A DNA stretch of 64,000 nt from Haladaptatus caseinilyticus (GTDB lineage Archaea > Halobacteriota > Halobacteria > Halobacteriales > Haladaptataceae), in contig NZ_CP111036.1 of the NCBI RefSeq assembly GCF_026248685.1, forward strand, positions 2,170,001-2,234,000. The letters are read 5' to 3'. Positions 4,211 to 11,012 of the stretch are shown one piece after another; position 1 is the stretch's first letter, and every line of letters begins with the position of its first letter. The notes under the pieces were generated by a model. That model was not told the DNA's origin. It made no database searches and saw only the letters and a program-made list of their open reading frames with translations. Position numbers and translations under genes: made by a program.

Positions 4211-4849
4211 TCAGCGGGGAGAACGCGCCGACCGTTTTTCGTCGCCCCGAAACACCCGAAGCGTATCGCGTTCCAACTCCTCGGACTCGGCTTCGTCGAA
4301 GCCGAACTCGGTGAACACATCGCACCAGTTTCGGTAGTAGAGCGGAAACTCGTCGTTGACGTAGCTCACGTCGATTTCGTCCGACTCGTCGTCTTCGCCT
4401 TCGTTTTCCACCGTGATGAGCAGGTCGTCCGTAATCCGGGCGATTTCCGCGAACACCCGCTCGTCGTCGGGATGGAGATGTTGGAGCGTTTCGACCGAGA
4501 ACACGACGTCGAACTGCCCATCATCGAAATCGCCGACGACGTTCTCTATCGCGTCGTGGTAGAACGTCCCCCGTTCGGCGAGGTCCGGATAGGTTTCGGC
4601 CATCACGTCGAACGCCTCGCCGTTGATTTCGATGCCGTGGAGGTTTTCGTAGCCGTTGTCGAGAAGGTGGGAGAGATGTCTGCCCGAACTACATCCGAGT
4701 TCCAAGATGGCCGTGTTCGAACCGAAACGGGAGTCGAGGCGAGCGCATATCGATTCGCTCGTCTCGTTCGGTCCGTAGTAGGCGTAGTAGTCCGGCGAGT
4801 ACTCCCCCGACCGCTCTGCCCATCGGTTTCGGACTTCGTTCGGATCCAT
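4211..4849 (-). CDS. Class I SAM-dependent methyltransferase
   Basis: A 212-residue protein with a Rossmann-fold methyltransferase core: motif I ILELGCSSGRHLSHL, an acidic residue ending the second strand (LHGIEING), then FDVVFSVETLQHL as motif IV. This is the Methyltransf_11/25 layout. The stretch VENEGEDDESDEIDVSYVNDE before the C-terminal strand is unusually acidic and may form a lid. It converges on the ThDP gene with only three bases between stop codons. The substrate is unknown. Confidence 0.85.
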   Translation of the reverse strand: MDPNEVRNRWAERSGEYSPDYYAYYGPNETSESICARLDSRFGSNTAILELGCSSGRHLSHLLDNGYENLHGIEINGEAFDVMAETYPDLAERGTFYHDAIENVVGDFDDGQFDVVFSVETLQHLHPDDERVFAEIARITDDLLITVENEGEDDESDEIDVSYVNDEFPLYYRNWCDVFTEFGFDEAESEELERDTLRVFRGDEKRSARSPR

Positions 4850-4989
4850 TCATTCCGCTACGAGTCGTGACCGTAAAGTCCCGGTGGTCGACCGGTTCGC
4901 AACGCTCGATCGAAGTGGTCGAACTCGATGGCAGTCGATTTGTCGCGGAACCAGCGTTAACTGGCTGGACGTTGAACGTCAGGGCGCAC

Positions 4990-5094
4990 ATGTCGAACCT
5001 CCTTCTGTGTCCGGAATGCGGTTGGACTGGGTCGAAAAACGACGGAAGCGCGGAGACGATCTGTCCGGCGTGTGGTGCCGACATCGAGACGTAG
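4990..5094 (+). CDS. CPxCG zinc-ribbon mini-protein
   Basis: A 34-residue protein with two zinc knuckles, Cys7/Cys10 (CPECG) and Cys25/Cys28 (CPACG), so a single-zinc ribbon is expected. Haloarchaea encode many such CPxCG micro-proteins, some with regulatory effects on biofilm or swarming. An in-frame upstream ATG at 4867 would give 75 residues, but the added segment lacks features, so I prefer the internal ATG. It lies between the divergent methyltransferase and the convergent oxidase gene, so is probably transcribed alone. Confidence 0.65.
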   Translation: MSNLLLCPECGWTGSKNDGSAETICPACGADIET

Positions 5095-5112
5095 ACGCCG
5101 ACGAGTCGGGGT

Positions 5113-6522
5113 TCAGTTTCGAATCCGCCCGCCACCCATCGTCTCCGGAAACAGTTTCCCGGGATTCAGCGTATCGTTCGGGTCGAGTGCTCGTTTTATC
5201 CGGCGCATCGCTTCCACGCTTTGTTCGCCGTGTTCACGTTCGAGATACTCGCGTTTTCCGCGGCCGATTCCGTGTTCACCCGTGCAGGTACCGCCGACCG
5301 CGATCGCGTTTTCGACGATTTCCGTCTGCACCCGTCGAGCGCGTTCGACCTGGTCGTCGTCCGATTCGTTCACCAACACGGAATAATGGAGGTTGCCGTC
5401 CCCGGCGTGACCGAAACAGGGAATCAGCAGGTCGTGTTCGTCCCCCAACCGGTGAACGAGACGAACCATCTCCGGATAGCGGCTGATGGGTACCGTCACG
5501 TCGCCGGAATGGAGGGGCGAAAGGTCCGTATCGAATGCTTGTACGGCGAACGCGAGTTCCCGACGGGCCTGCCACAGGTCGTCCATCTCGTCACCCGCAG
5601 CGATTTCGAATCGCGTGATGTCGTGTGCCTCGAACACCGAGCGACAGAAGTCGATTTCCGCTTCGATGCCGTGGTTCGCGTGGAACTCCACGAACACCAT
5701 CGGGGCGTCCGGAAGTGACGATCCAGTGTAGGCGTTCGCCATCGCCGCGCTCGTCCCATCGACGAGTTCTATTTTCGCGACGTCCACCCCGGAACGAACG
5801 GCGTCGGATACCGCCTCCACCGCATCCGAGAGGGTTTCGAAGATAGCACGACCACCGCGAACCTGTTCCGGTAGTCCAGCGAGTTCGAGCGTCGCTCGCG
5901 TAACGACTGCCAGCGTCCCCTCACTCCCGACGATGAGGTCTTTCAGATTGTACCCGCTGGACGTTTTTACCGCCTTGCTCCCCGCCGTGATAACCGATCC
6001 GTCGGCCAGCACTGCTTCGAGTTCCAGTACCCAATCGCTTACCTCGCCGTATCGGACGGTCTTCATCCCGCTGGCGTCGTTCGCTATCATCCCACCGATC
6101 GTGGAGATGTCGCCCGACGACGGCAGTGGCGGAAAAAACAACCCGTGCTTCGCCACCGTTTCGTCCACGGTCGTTCCAAAAACACCGGGTTCGACATCGA
6201 TCTGGAGGTCGTCGGGGCGGACGTCGAGTACGTCGACCATCCGCGTCATATCGAGGCTGATTCCGCCGCGCGACGGTGTCGCGTTCCCTTCGAGGCTCGT
6301 CCCCGCGGCGTAGGGCGTCACCGGAACTCCTTGCTCGTCCGCACTCCGCAACGCCGTTGCTACATCCGCAGTCGATTCGGGCCAGATAACTGCGTCCGGG
6401 CGGACGTACTCGTGCTCCGGTGTCCCCCAGTCGCCGGACCGTTCCGTCCGATGGGAATCGCCGAACGAGATTTGGTCCGCATCGAGTGAACAGTCGTGGA
6501 GAAACGAACAGTCATATGTCAT
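5113..6522 (-). CDS. FAD-linked oxidase, glycolate/D-lactate dehydrogenase (GlcD) type
   Basis: A 469-residue flavoprotein of the VAO/PCMH family. The FAD-binding half has PVTPYAAGTSLEGNATP and GMIANDASGMKTVRYG; the C-terminal FAD-linked oxidase cap has CFGHAGDGNLHYS and GGTCTGEHGIGRGKREYL, the family signature. It probably oxidises a 2-hydroxyacid such as D-lactate or glycolate to the 2-oxoacid. Unlike GlpC- or GlcF-fused relatives there is no Fe-S domain and no partner gene next to it. The start at MTYDCSF (6522) agrees with a TATA-like element about 27 bases upstream; the 26 residues before it look non-coding. Confidence 0.9.
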   Translation of the reverse strand: MTYDCSFLHDCSLDADQISFGDSHRTERSGDWGTPEHEYVRPDAVIWPESTADVATALRSADEQGVPVTPYAAGTSLEGNATPSRGGISLDMTRMVDVLDVRPDDLQIDVEPGVFGTTVDETVAKHGLFFPPLPSSGDISTIGGMIANDASGMKTVRYGEVSDWVLELEAVLADGSVITAGSKAVKTSSGYNLKDLIVGSEGTLAVVTRATLELAGLPEQVRGGRAIFETLSDAVEAVSDAVRSGVDVAKIELVDGTSAAMANAYTGSSLPDAPMVFVEFHANHGIEAEIDFCRSVFEAHDITRFEIAAGDEMDDLWQARRELAFAVQAFDTDLSPLHSGDVTVPISRYPEMVRLVHRLGDEHDLLIPCFGHAGDGNLHYSVLVNESDDDQVERARRVQTEIVENAIAVGGTCTGEHGIGRGKREYLEREHGEQSVEAMRRIKRALDPNDTLNPGKLFPETMGGGRIRN

Positions 6523-8172: not shown

Positions 8173-10281
8173 TCAGTCGAGGTCACGAGCGCTGATATCG
8201 TCGCTCCAGTAGAGGTCGCCGTCGTACTCTACGGGCATCGACTCTAGTTCAAAGAATCGGTCGAGTTCGTCGGCCGTCAGTTCGAACGTGTCGAACACCC
8301 CTGGAGTCAGATATTTGCAATCTGCGGCATCGAGGTGGATGGACCCGAGTGTCCCTGGAGGACAGTACCGGGTGGAGTATGAACGAAATTCGAACAGATA
8401 CGACCCCGTAGTCGATCGCGTAACGGTACCGTAGCTGCACATCCCGGAGATCGATTGGCAGAGCTCCGTTCCACCGTCGCCGATCGTGATATATTGGTAG
8501 CCGGAAAGGGTTCGTTTTCGAGCGATCGCAAGCGCAGAACGGAACGGGTATCCAACGTTGAGCAGGCGGGTGAGGGTCCGACCGACTTTCGTTGCGGCGG
8601 GGTTAGATACGTCGGAGAGCGTCACGACACCGACGCGACTCCCTTTCTCTATCAGTTCGGCTCCTTGCTTGTACGACCGACACGCATTGAGCAGGAACGT
8701 TCTGACCCCGACGTCCTCGATGGTACGTGTATCCAGAATACCATCCGTGCATTGGATTCCATCGTGGTCCACATGCCCGATATAATGGAGGAAATCGATC
8801 GGACTCGCTATCAAATCTCGGAGTTCGTCCGTCGTGCGGTCGTATTTGATATCCACATCGTACTCCACCAGTTTACGGAAGCCATACAGTTCTTTGACCG
8901 TCCCTTCGGCAGCCATTTTCTCGTCGTTACAAACGACGCGAACCTGAATCTCCGAATTCTCGGGCGTCGTTCGGTCGATATGCCGTCGTCGAGAACCGAT
9001 CGTGACCTTGTTGCTCCCGAGTGGATACCCGTCGCCGACCCACGCATGATCGATGGTTTCGACGGGCTTCGGTTCGACGATTCGCTGTTTTTCAACGGCT
9101 CCGTTGGGTTCCGTTGCGGAACTTCGGCAGAAGTTGCCGATTACGGCTGGCGACGACTGGGGGGGTCTTTTTCTCGGGGATTCCGGACAGCGAACGAGTG
9201 AAAGGTCGTCCGCGACGAACGGGAGAAATTCGACGTTTTCGGGCGTGGGAATCACATCGGTCGTGAGTGGCCACTCGGGAATATGCGGTTGAAGCGTTTC
9301 GAAGGGGTACGTAAGGTATTCACGTAGCCGCTCCGCGAGCGGTGTGTCGTATAGTCCGGCGAAATCGATGTCGAGGGACCGTTCGACCTGTTGTCGTTCG
9401 TGGAGCTTCGTGTCGTATAGCCCCTCCGTTCGCGTGAGACAATCGAGGAAAAACACGTGTTGGAGAACCTTCCCGACGGTCGTTTCGTAGTCCGCTGGCT
9501 CGTCGAGAGGATGTTCGATACCGTCCGTAACCAGACGAGGGCTGGTTCCTGAGACGACGTCCGCTCCGAGATAGTAGGCGAGGGATGTGGCGGGATACAC
9601 GTATTCACGGCTCGGTGGAAGGACGAGTTTGACGCCCATATTCGGCGATGAAATACCACCGGTGACCGAGAACGCATCGCCACGTTCGATAATCGGTGGG
9701 TGGCCGCGGAGCGTGGGAAACGACCGTTCCGGACTGGTCGTTTTCAGCGCCGATCCGAGCAACGAAACGGCACGCATCGTCGCATCGATGTCGTCCGGTA
9801 CCGTAATCGTTCCCGCGGGTCGCTTATGAACGGACCGTGCGCCAAGCGTGACCGTGGTTTCCGATTCCAGTTCGATGACGGTATTCGGGCCATCGGAAGA
9901 GACCGCAACGGGACCGTTGACGCCCAAGTATAGGTTGATAGCTCCGTGTTCCAGTTGTAAGTATGGGACGTTGTCCGCCGATAGTTGGCGACCGACATTG
10001 TCGGACCAGCTGAATATGAGCTCGAAATCGCAGTTTCGTGCGTAGACGGAGAGGAGCTTCGGAATGGTGATCGTCGTCGCGGAAAACGTCGTCGCTGCGG
10101 ATACCGGAAACGGAACTTCATCGACATCCACCAGGTCAAGCGTGACGTCAGTTTCCGTGTACAGTTCGAATCGAACGTTTTGGATCGAGTCGTAAACCAA
10201 CACTCCCGACGGATCTGAGAGCGTCTCGAACGCCGGCCGAGGTGAATCATCGAAATCGAACGAGAACGATGTGTCAGTCAT
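8173..10281 (-). CDS. CHAT-domain (caspase-like) protein with a large uncharacterised N-terminal region
   Basis: A 702-residue protein. The C-terminal part, about residues 440-640, looks like a CHAT peptidase domain (clan CD, related to caspases and separases). DFLHYIGHVDHDG supplies the likely catalytic His503 and TFLLNACRSYKQGAELI the likely Cys534; VGVVTLSDVSNP and the following helix (PFRSALAIARKRT) match the rest of the fold. Residues 1-340 are beta-rich and unrecognised, and a Pro/Ser-rich linker lies near 360-400. No signal peptide or membrane segment is seen, so it is cytoplasmic. I chose the ATG at 10281 because it overlaps the stop of the upstream gene (ATGA), implying translational coupling. 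By eye the codon third positions are less GC-rich than in the neighbours. Cellular target unknown. Confidence 0.8.
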   Translation of the reverse strand: MTDTSFSFDFDDSPRPAFETLSDPSGVLVYDSIQNVRFELYTETDVTLDLVDVDEVPFPVSAATTFSATTITIPKLLSVYARNCDFELIFSWSDNVGRQLSADNVPYLQLEHGAINLYLGVNGPVAVSSDGPNTVIELESETTVTLGARSVHKRPAGTITVPDDIDATMRAVSLLGSALKTTSPERSFPTLRGHPPIIERGDAFSVTGGISSPNMGVKLVLPPSREYVYPATSLAYYLGADVVSGTSPRLVTDGIEHPLDEPADYETTVGKVLQHVFFLDCLTRTEGLYDTKLHERQQVERSLDIDFAGLYDTPLAERLREYLTYPFETLQPHIPEWPLTTDVIPTPENVEFLPFVADDLSLVRCPESPRKRPPQSSPAVIGNFCRSSATEPNGAVEKQRIVEPKPVETIDHAWVGDGYPLGSNKVTIGSRRRHIDRTTPENSEIQVRVVCNDEKMAAEGTVKELYGFRKLVEYDVDIKYDRTTDELRDLIASPIDFLHYIGHVDHDGIQCTDGILDTRTIEDVGVRTFLLNACRSYKQGAELIEKGSRVGVVTLSDVSNPAATKVGRTLTRLLNVGYPFRSALAIARKRTLSGYQYITIGDGGTELCQSISGMCSYGTVTRSTTGSYLFEFRSYSTRYCPPGTLGSIHLDAADCKYLTPGVFDTFELTADELDRFFELESMPVEYDGDLYWSDDISARDLD

Positions 10282-10973
10282 AGCTGCACCCAGTTCGTCG
10301 TTTGGTCGTACTTCGGAACGTGCCACCGTTGCTCTGGGACGAGGCTTTCGGTCTGTCGAAGCTCGACACGGGCGTCGAATAGCGGCGATAGTTCCTGTAC
10401 TATTTCGGTATCATCGGGCAACGGTAGATGATAGTGTGCCATCCCTGATACGCCTCGAATCAGCGCCGTAACCGTTCGAAGAAATCGTTCGACGGTCGGT
10501 TGCTCGTGCTGTTCGAGGGGTTTGATGAGTGAATCCAGCGAGAATCGGAGCTCCGATGCGCCGAGACCATCTGCCCACTCGTCGTAGAAGCTGACGGCGG
10601 AGGTGATCTCCGAGCGGAGTTCGCGGAGCCCGTCATCCGAAACCGGTCGTGGGACGGTCGGCATCGGAACTGACTCCGTAATCGCGCGTTCGTCGTTTCC
10701 CCAATCGATGACCCAGACGTCCGGGTCGTCGATGGTCGTGCCGGCAGGGAGTTTCGAGTTCACATATCTGGCAGTCGTTCCCGTCAGAACCAATACGCGT
10801 TTTCGCTCCTCGGTGGAGGCTCCGAGAAGCTGTATGGTCGTCCGATTCGTGGTGGTCTCAGAGACCCTTCCAGTAACGAGAATATTACACCCGTGCCGTT
10901 TGAACTCGGAGAGAACAGTGTGAAATTCGGGCGAAGAATCCCCGCCACGGAATGAAATCCCTTCGGAACCCAT
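10278..10973 (-). CDS. KaiC/RecA-like protein without a Walker A motif (DUF7504 type)
   Basis: A 231-residue protein that I match from memory to the haloarchaeal DUF7504 family, degenerate relatives of KaiC/Rad55 ATPases. Where a P-loop is expected the sequence reads ILVTGRVSETTTNRTTIQLL, with no GKT/S, followed by a strand RVLVLTGTT. The C-terminal half has SELRFSLDSLIKPLEQH and VSGMAHYHLPLP, the family hallmark. It therefore probably folds like a RecA core but cannot bind ATP in the usual way. It precedes and overlaps the CHAT gene by four bases. The start at 10973 is supported by a TATA-like element at 11001-11012; longer upstream forms are rejected. A partner or sensor for the CHAT protein is the natural inference. 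Confidence 0.75.
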   Translation of the reverse strand: MGSEGISFRGGDSSPEFHTVLSEFKRHGCNILVTGRVSETTTNRTTIQLLGASTEERKRVLVLTGTTARYVNSKLPAGTTIDDPDVWVIDWGNDERAITESVPMPTVPRPVSDDGLRELRSEITSAVSFYDEWADGLGASELRFSLDSLIKPLEQHEQPTVERFLRTVTALIRGVSGMAHYHLPLPDDTEIVQELSPLFDARVELRQTESLVPEQRWHVPKYDQTTNWVQL

Positions 10974-11000: not shown

Positions 11001-11012
11001 AGATAAAAATTT
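11001..11012 (-). promoter_or_regulatory. TATA-like element of the CHAT operon
   Basis: On the minus strand AAATTTTTATCT lies 28-39 bases before the ATG at 10973. It is the only AT-rich block between the KaiC-like gene and the divergent 11192 gene and fits a leaderless operon transcript. Confidence 0.5.

Follow-up and report, generated by a model that had tools for sequence, protein, structure and literature searches.

A CHAT-like protease family and its P-loop-less KaiC-like partner in haloarchaea: a candidate unit of regulated proteolysis

The two overlapping genes described here encode a KaiC-like protein lacking the P-loop and a larger protein with a caspase-type fold, in which a His and a Cys are placed as in the active sites of CHAT and separase proteases. 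We judge it rather probable that they form a two-gene signalling unit, in which the dead KaiC domain switches a site-specific protease of the CHAT/separase type. More tentatively, and with appreciable doubt, the pair may be read as part of a haloarchaea-wide form of regulated proteolysis, where a dead KaiC switch of a separase/caspase-type protease would be an undescribed proteolytic output of the KaiC/HalOD1 network.

The gene pair and its predicted proteins

The window, meaning the whole stretch of 64,000 nucleotides that was analysed, corresponds to positions 2,170,001-2,234,000 on the main contig of the genome (4.8 Mb) of the haloarchaeon Haladaptatus caseinilyticus. Among named relatives, Haladaptatus species are the closest at this locus. 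The first gene of the pair (10278..10973; the pair and all of its features located below lie on the minus strand) encodes a 231-aa DUF7504 (PF24336) protein, which has a KaiC/RecA fold according to Pfam, AlphaFold2 and Foldseek and lacks the P-loop. The second (8173..10281) encodes a 702-aa CHAT/clan CD protease-like protein, whose start codon overlaps the DUF7504 stop in the sequence ATGA. The reading frames, their overlap and their housekeeping surroundings are as the preliminary description had them, with mptE-like, folP, trmJ-like methylase, PAP2 and GatB-like genes around the pair. A promoter of its own had also been proposed, and is supported by a TATA-like box (TTTTTATC, 11002..11009) 28 nt before the DUF7504 ATG, which is a consensus match only. 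As folP, downstream of the pair, has a separate TATA-like box within a 39-bp gap, the sequence indicates that the DUF7504 and CHAT-like genes are probably one transcription unit. Beside trmJ, the segment 11192-11716 encodes a conserved 174-aa protein that occupies the same place in five related loci and has no Pfam match at E 1e-4.

The AlphaFold2 model of the 702-aa protein, built from a 58-sequence alignment (pLDDT 88.6, pTM 0.90), has the alpha/beta fold of caspase-type (clan CD) proteases. In a Foldseek search of the PDB it matched separase (5fby, E 1.4e-6), SAVED-CHAT (8tl0, E 2.6e-6), gingipain (E 2.4e-5), the Craspase TPR-CHAT protein (7zoq, E 3.9e-5) and, weakly, procaspase-3 (E 0.019); the global TM-scores reach no more than about 0.2 by query length, as the alignment is confined to the protease part. 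A profile of the family gave no match to solved structures by sequence. The Pfam CHAT model (PF12770) scores 10.8 bits on the window protein, below its curated cut-off of 24, and for this reason we call the protein CHAT-like and regard it as a divergent branch; within the family, 21 of 58 members match at E<=1, the best of them at E 2.1e-5.

Four regions can be distinguished in the model. Residues about 1-160 (9802..10281) form a beta-rich domain, delimited by AlphaFold2 secondary structure, that has no Pfam match. They are followed by an alpha/beta region of residues about 161-440 (8962..9801), with the motifs LRGHPP and FFLDCLTRTEG, which is the most conserved of the non-catalytic parts. By analogy with separase and Csx29, this middle region is possibly a pseudo-caspase or regulatory half, and Foldseek gives long alignments of the model to gingipain and separase. 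The caspase-type catalytic core comprises residues about 441-610 (8452..8961), as judged from strand-helix order, active-site positions and Foldseek, and residues 611-702 (8176..8451) make up a C-terminal beta-rich extension in the AlphaFold2 model, with conserved G643, P683 and W692.

Within the core the modelled strands come in an order that fits clan CD (beta1 445-451, beta3 495-501, beta4 526-532, beta5 550-554). The putative catalytic residues His503 (codon 8773..8775, in HYIGH) and Cys534 (codon 8680..8682, in LLNAC) follow beta3 and beta4 in the model, the strand ends expected for catalysis, and their contexts resemble the active sites of CHAT proteins and separase. Both are invariant across the relatives (112/112 distinct proteins), and so are H499, N532, S536 and a second cysteine near the catalytic His, Cys511 (codon 8749..8751). 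Because one of the two scan patterns included HYIGH, the His was partly pre-selected in the loci so found, which does not hold for the Cys; the loci collected by profile search carry no such bias for either residue. The model makes the 702-aa protein a probable clan CD cysteine endopeptidase, of the CHAT/separase type. The preliminary description had proposed a CHAT-type protease and had staked this on three points, namely that homologues should keep the His and Cys, that the two genes should not rarely occur together and that the fold should be caspase-like; both residues are kept, the genes are often paired and the fold is of that kind, and the proposal therefore survived on all three.

Clan CD proteases recognise the P1 side chain with residues in loop 1/helix 1 and in the loop after beta5 (PMC4357240; PMC4626109). 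The reading residues are Arg in caspases and acids in the Arg-cleaving MALT1 (Glu500; PMC4357240), and in gingipain a single helix-1 Asp reads P1 (PMC4626109). Across the relatives of the CHAT-like protein, D453 (97%) and E459 (99%) are acidic residues near alpha1, and the predicted S1 acid in the loop after beta5, Asp557 (codon 8611..8613), is Asp or Glu in 102/112, these positions having been placed by secondary-structure order (topology) and not by superposed coordinates. By the same topology, the family has Asp/Glu where the caspases of C14A, with their basic S1, have an Arg after beta5. Acids at the P1-reading places thus suggest, as far as the model goes, cleavage after Arg or Lys and not after Asp.

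The partner is assigned to DUF7504 by Pfam with E 1.8e-54 (185.4 bits, cut-off 27). Its AlphaFold2 model (pLDDT 89.2, pTM 0.87) has KaiC as the best Foldseek match in the PDB (E 6.8e-9), and KaiC is also the closest relative when the DUF7504 profile is compared with the PDB (E 0.0016). The Walker A motif GxxxxGK[ST] is found in none of 55 DUF7504 relatives, while a Walker-B-like Asp147 is retained in 44 of them. The partner is a pseudo-ATPase member of the KaiC-like (RecA fold) superfamily, and the earlier recognition of a KaiC-like protein without P-loop was correct.

Distribution, pairing and decay

The protease family is present in 366 of 392 haloarchaeal genomes and in 78 of 86 genera, and each of the 15 genomes of the genus identified as Haloferax has one copy. 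The position between folP and trmJ is common to four other Haladaptatus genomes and Halomicrococcus; some related genomes have tandem copies at this site, and in Halomicrococcus there is no adjacent DUF7504 gene. A variable or foreign islet, as first supposed, is not borne out by this distribution and conserved synteny, and we also rejected a mobile origin. The codons were seen as less G/C-biased, and GC3 is indeed slightly low in the pair (0.642 and 0.629, median 0.698); four paralogs are similarly low (0.617-0.661), which makes low GC3 a family trait and no sign of foreign origin. Among the control genomes, the Pfam CHAT model found no match in Haloferax volcanii, and this model is too distant even for the H. 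caseinilyticus copies (best 12.1 bits).

Twenty-five records place the protease on plasmids, where the copies are annotated as 'hypothetical protein', once as 'caspase family protein' and once as 'CHAT domain-containing protein'. Outside the haloarchaea, the phylum sample gave matches in four genomes of one family only. These loci (L156-L159) hold distant solo relatives of the protease with shared neighbours, from one non-haloarchaeal family, possibly Methanocellaceae, and one of the relatives (L158) has lost both catalytic residues.

In the H. caseinilyticus genome, four of the five CHAT-like genes lie directly behind a DUF7504 gene on the same strand. In 117 haloarchaeal gene records, which contain a few genes fetched twice and represent 112 distinct proteins, DUF7504 is immediately upstream of the protease in 59 and just downstream in 8, and none is found within 1.5 kb in 47. 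All eight named Haloferax loci are paired. On the protease tree, genes with and without the partner are mixed, which indicates that pairing was gained or lost several times. The divergences of the two partners correlate (rho 0.75, 56 pairs), and they do so also within the Haladaptatus copies, where a species has several pairs (rho 0.70, a value reached by 0 of 2000 permutations). This co-divergence within a genus shows that the operon duplicates as a unit; taken alone, it is no proof that the partners bind. Co-occurrence of the two genes is therefore upheld as a recurrent, co-diverging operon and not as an obligate one, since only about half of the records are paired. Unpaired proteases could be served by a distant DUF7504 gene, given that the domain was found in all 116 haloarchaeal genomes sampled, with 1-16 matches each. 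A different conserved partner for the solo copies was considered and discarded, as their neighbours (birA, a TbsP-like regulator, an AstE/AspA-family gene) vary by lineage.

The H. caseinilyticus genome has about fifteen DUF7504 genes, and other DUF7504 proteins encoded there bear HalOD1 domains or the winged-helix domains DUF7343/DUF7344. The partner of one CHAT-like copy (L032, at about 2.42 Mb of contig C1) is a fusion of HalOD1 (PF18545) with DUF7504, and HalOD1-iKaiC is reported as a haloarchaeal signalling architecture (PMC5847659). In the gene records, a small HalOD1 profile found this domain beside the CHAT-like gene at few loci only, and the fusion is accordingly suggestive and not general. 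Upstream of the HalOD1-DUF7504/CHAT pair of L032 (9496-12227), genes for proteins of 125 and 785 aa lie close together on the opposite strand. In Haladaptatus litoreus (L140, 5541-9774), two stand-alone HalOD1 genes and a DUF7504-DUF7344 gene flank the protease, all on one strand.

Some copies are broken. At the folP-trmJ site of Haladaptatus halobius (L080, 5965-8060) the protease is split over four frames and DUF7504 reads through. In H. caseinilyticus, a 72-aa frame similar to the CHAT-like C-terminus (L034, 3958-4176, minus strand, at about 668 kb of contig C1) lies downstream of a HalOD1-DUF7504 fusion (4246-5184, minus strand), and this locus is probably a decayed copy of the CHAT-like/DUF7504 pair. 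Another locus of the same genome (L043, about 5016-5597, at about 351.5-352.1 kb of contig C2) has a frame-broken DUF7504 without a CHAT gene.

Proposed mechanism and rival readings

In the mechanism that we propose, the dead KaiC domain of DUF7504 would take up signals from the KaiC/HalOD1 network of haloarchaea. The DUF7504 protein would bind the protease and hold or release it, acting as an allosteric regulator in the way of securin with separase or of Cas7-11 with Csx29, and the freed protease would cut a single host protein, or a few, at specific sites that are predicted to lie after Arg or Lys. Regulated proteolysis in signalling best fits a family that occurs almost throughout the haloarchaea, keeps its genomic place, is linked to a signalling domain and has no defence partners, and we infer a cellular role in housekeeping or stress signalling rather than in defence.

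An antiviral or abortive-infection function, in which the KaiC-like protein would sense infection and set the protease free, with death or arrest of the cell as the outcome, is an unlikely reading that we nevertheless keep as a minority one, because the copies multiply, reach plasmids and decay (L034, L043, L080), as typical defence genes do. Craspase and SAVED-CHAT, systems of defence in which CHAT proteases act, are moreover among the closest structures. Against it stand the presence of the family in nearly all haloarchaea, its single copy in every Haloferax genome searched and its fixed synteny; its neighbours are mptE, folP, trmJ and a gatB-like gene, and no killer partner such as a gasdermin or nuclease adjoins it. 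The link to defence that had been suggested was not found: PADLOC gave no match to either protein at E<0.01, with one chance match at 0.039, the search for defence genes near the pair returned a generic methyltransferase match only, and no sequence relatives were found in viral contigs or phages. A viral origin was discarded on this last result; at E<=0.001 a viral fold search added only two matches, both weak and partial.

Two further readings, both of them improbable in our view, concern the activity itself. Extracts of H. volcanii were shown in 2012 to contain a strong, zVAD-sensitive and stress-linked caspase-like activity, whose gene was then unidentified and whose identification was called for (PMC3615174). 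A clan CD protease kept as a single copy across the Haloferax genomes might be the source of this Asp-directed activity, but the predicted S1 acids D453, E459 and D/E557 favour a basic P1, which is the reverse of the caspase preference; the authors of that study themselves raised the proteasome, which has caspase-like sites, and none of the genomes searched could be named as H. volcanii. The family is for this activity a testable candidate and not a favoured one. It is equally doubtful that the protein is a non-proteolytic scaffold or regulator with a caspase fold, whose His and Cys would serve otherwise, for instance in a redox pair with Cys511. The Pfam CHAT score under the cut-off and the presence of a second invariant cysteine in the same domain would agree with such a role, but His503 and Cys534 stand at the catalytic strand ends and are invariant together, and among pseudoproteases one of the two would usually be missing from some family members.

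The preliminary description had presented the two genes as a candidate undescribed system. For the pair this stands in the literature searched, which has no description of DUF7504 with the protease, a mention in the 2017 KaiC-hub work being possible, and which has no haloarchaeal work on CHAT, archaea and protease; it does not stand for the inactivated KaiC domains of the DUF7504 type and their HalOD1 fusions, which were already described (PMC5847659). A nearly universal protease accompanied by a dead KaiC domain makes it testable what the many KaiC-like proteins of haloarchaea control, and whether they act by switching proteolysis. If the proposal is true, a regulated archaeal branch would be added to the separase/caspase class.

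Comparison with known systems

Caspases, the paracaspase MALT1 and gingipain R share the clan CD fold class with the CHAT-like protein. Its predicted S1 acids are like those of MALT1 and gingipain and unlike the S1 residues of caspases, and its architecture is otherwise unlike all of them. In Craspase Csx29 (TPR-CHAT) and in SAVED-CHAT, a CHAT catalytic domain is switched by a partner or ligand, which is the control envisaged here, and Csx29 consists of a pseudo-caspase half and an active caspase half (PMC10028731). The haloarchaeal family differs in having no TPR (by Pfam), no SAVED and no CRISPR association, in its KaiC-like partner and in being near-universal and chromosomal; type III-E TPR-CHAT proteins have TPR repeats and an adjacent Cas7-11, and here housekeeping genes are the neighbours. 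The DUF7504 partner belongs by Pfam and fold with the archaeal KaiC-like/iKaiC proteins (arCOG02452; HalOD1-iKaiC, PMC5847659; DUF7504, DUF7090, DUF835), for which PMC5847659 mentions neither a protease partner nor CHAT.

Separase (peptidase C50; ctSPD 5fby, human separase-securin 7nj1) is the best structural match, although identity is about 12% and the TM-score 0.22 by query length. No cohesin or securin is seen here, and the N-terminal part of the CHAT-like protein is beta-rich in the model, without a helical superstructure. The two proteins have in common the His-Cys dyad and a likely basic P1, and separase is regulated in eukaryotes by a bound partner, much as we propose that DUF7504 may control the haloarchaeal protease.
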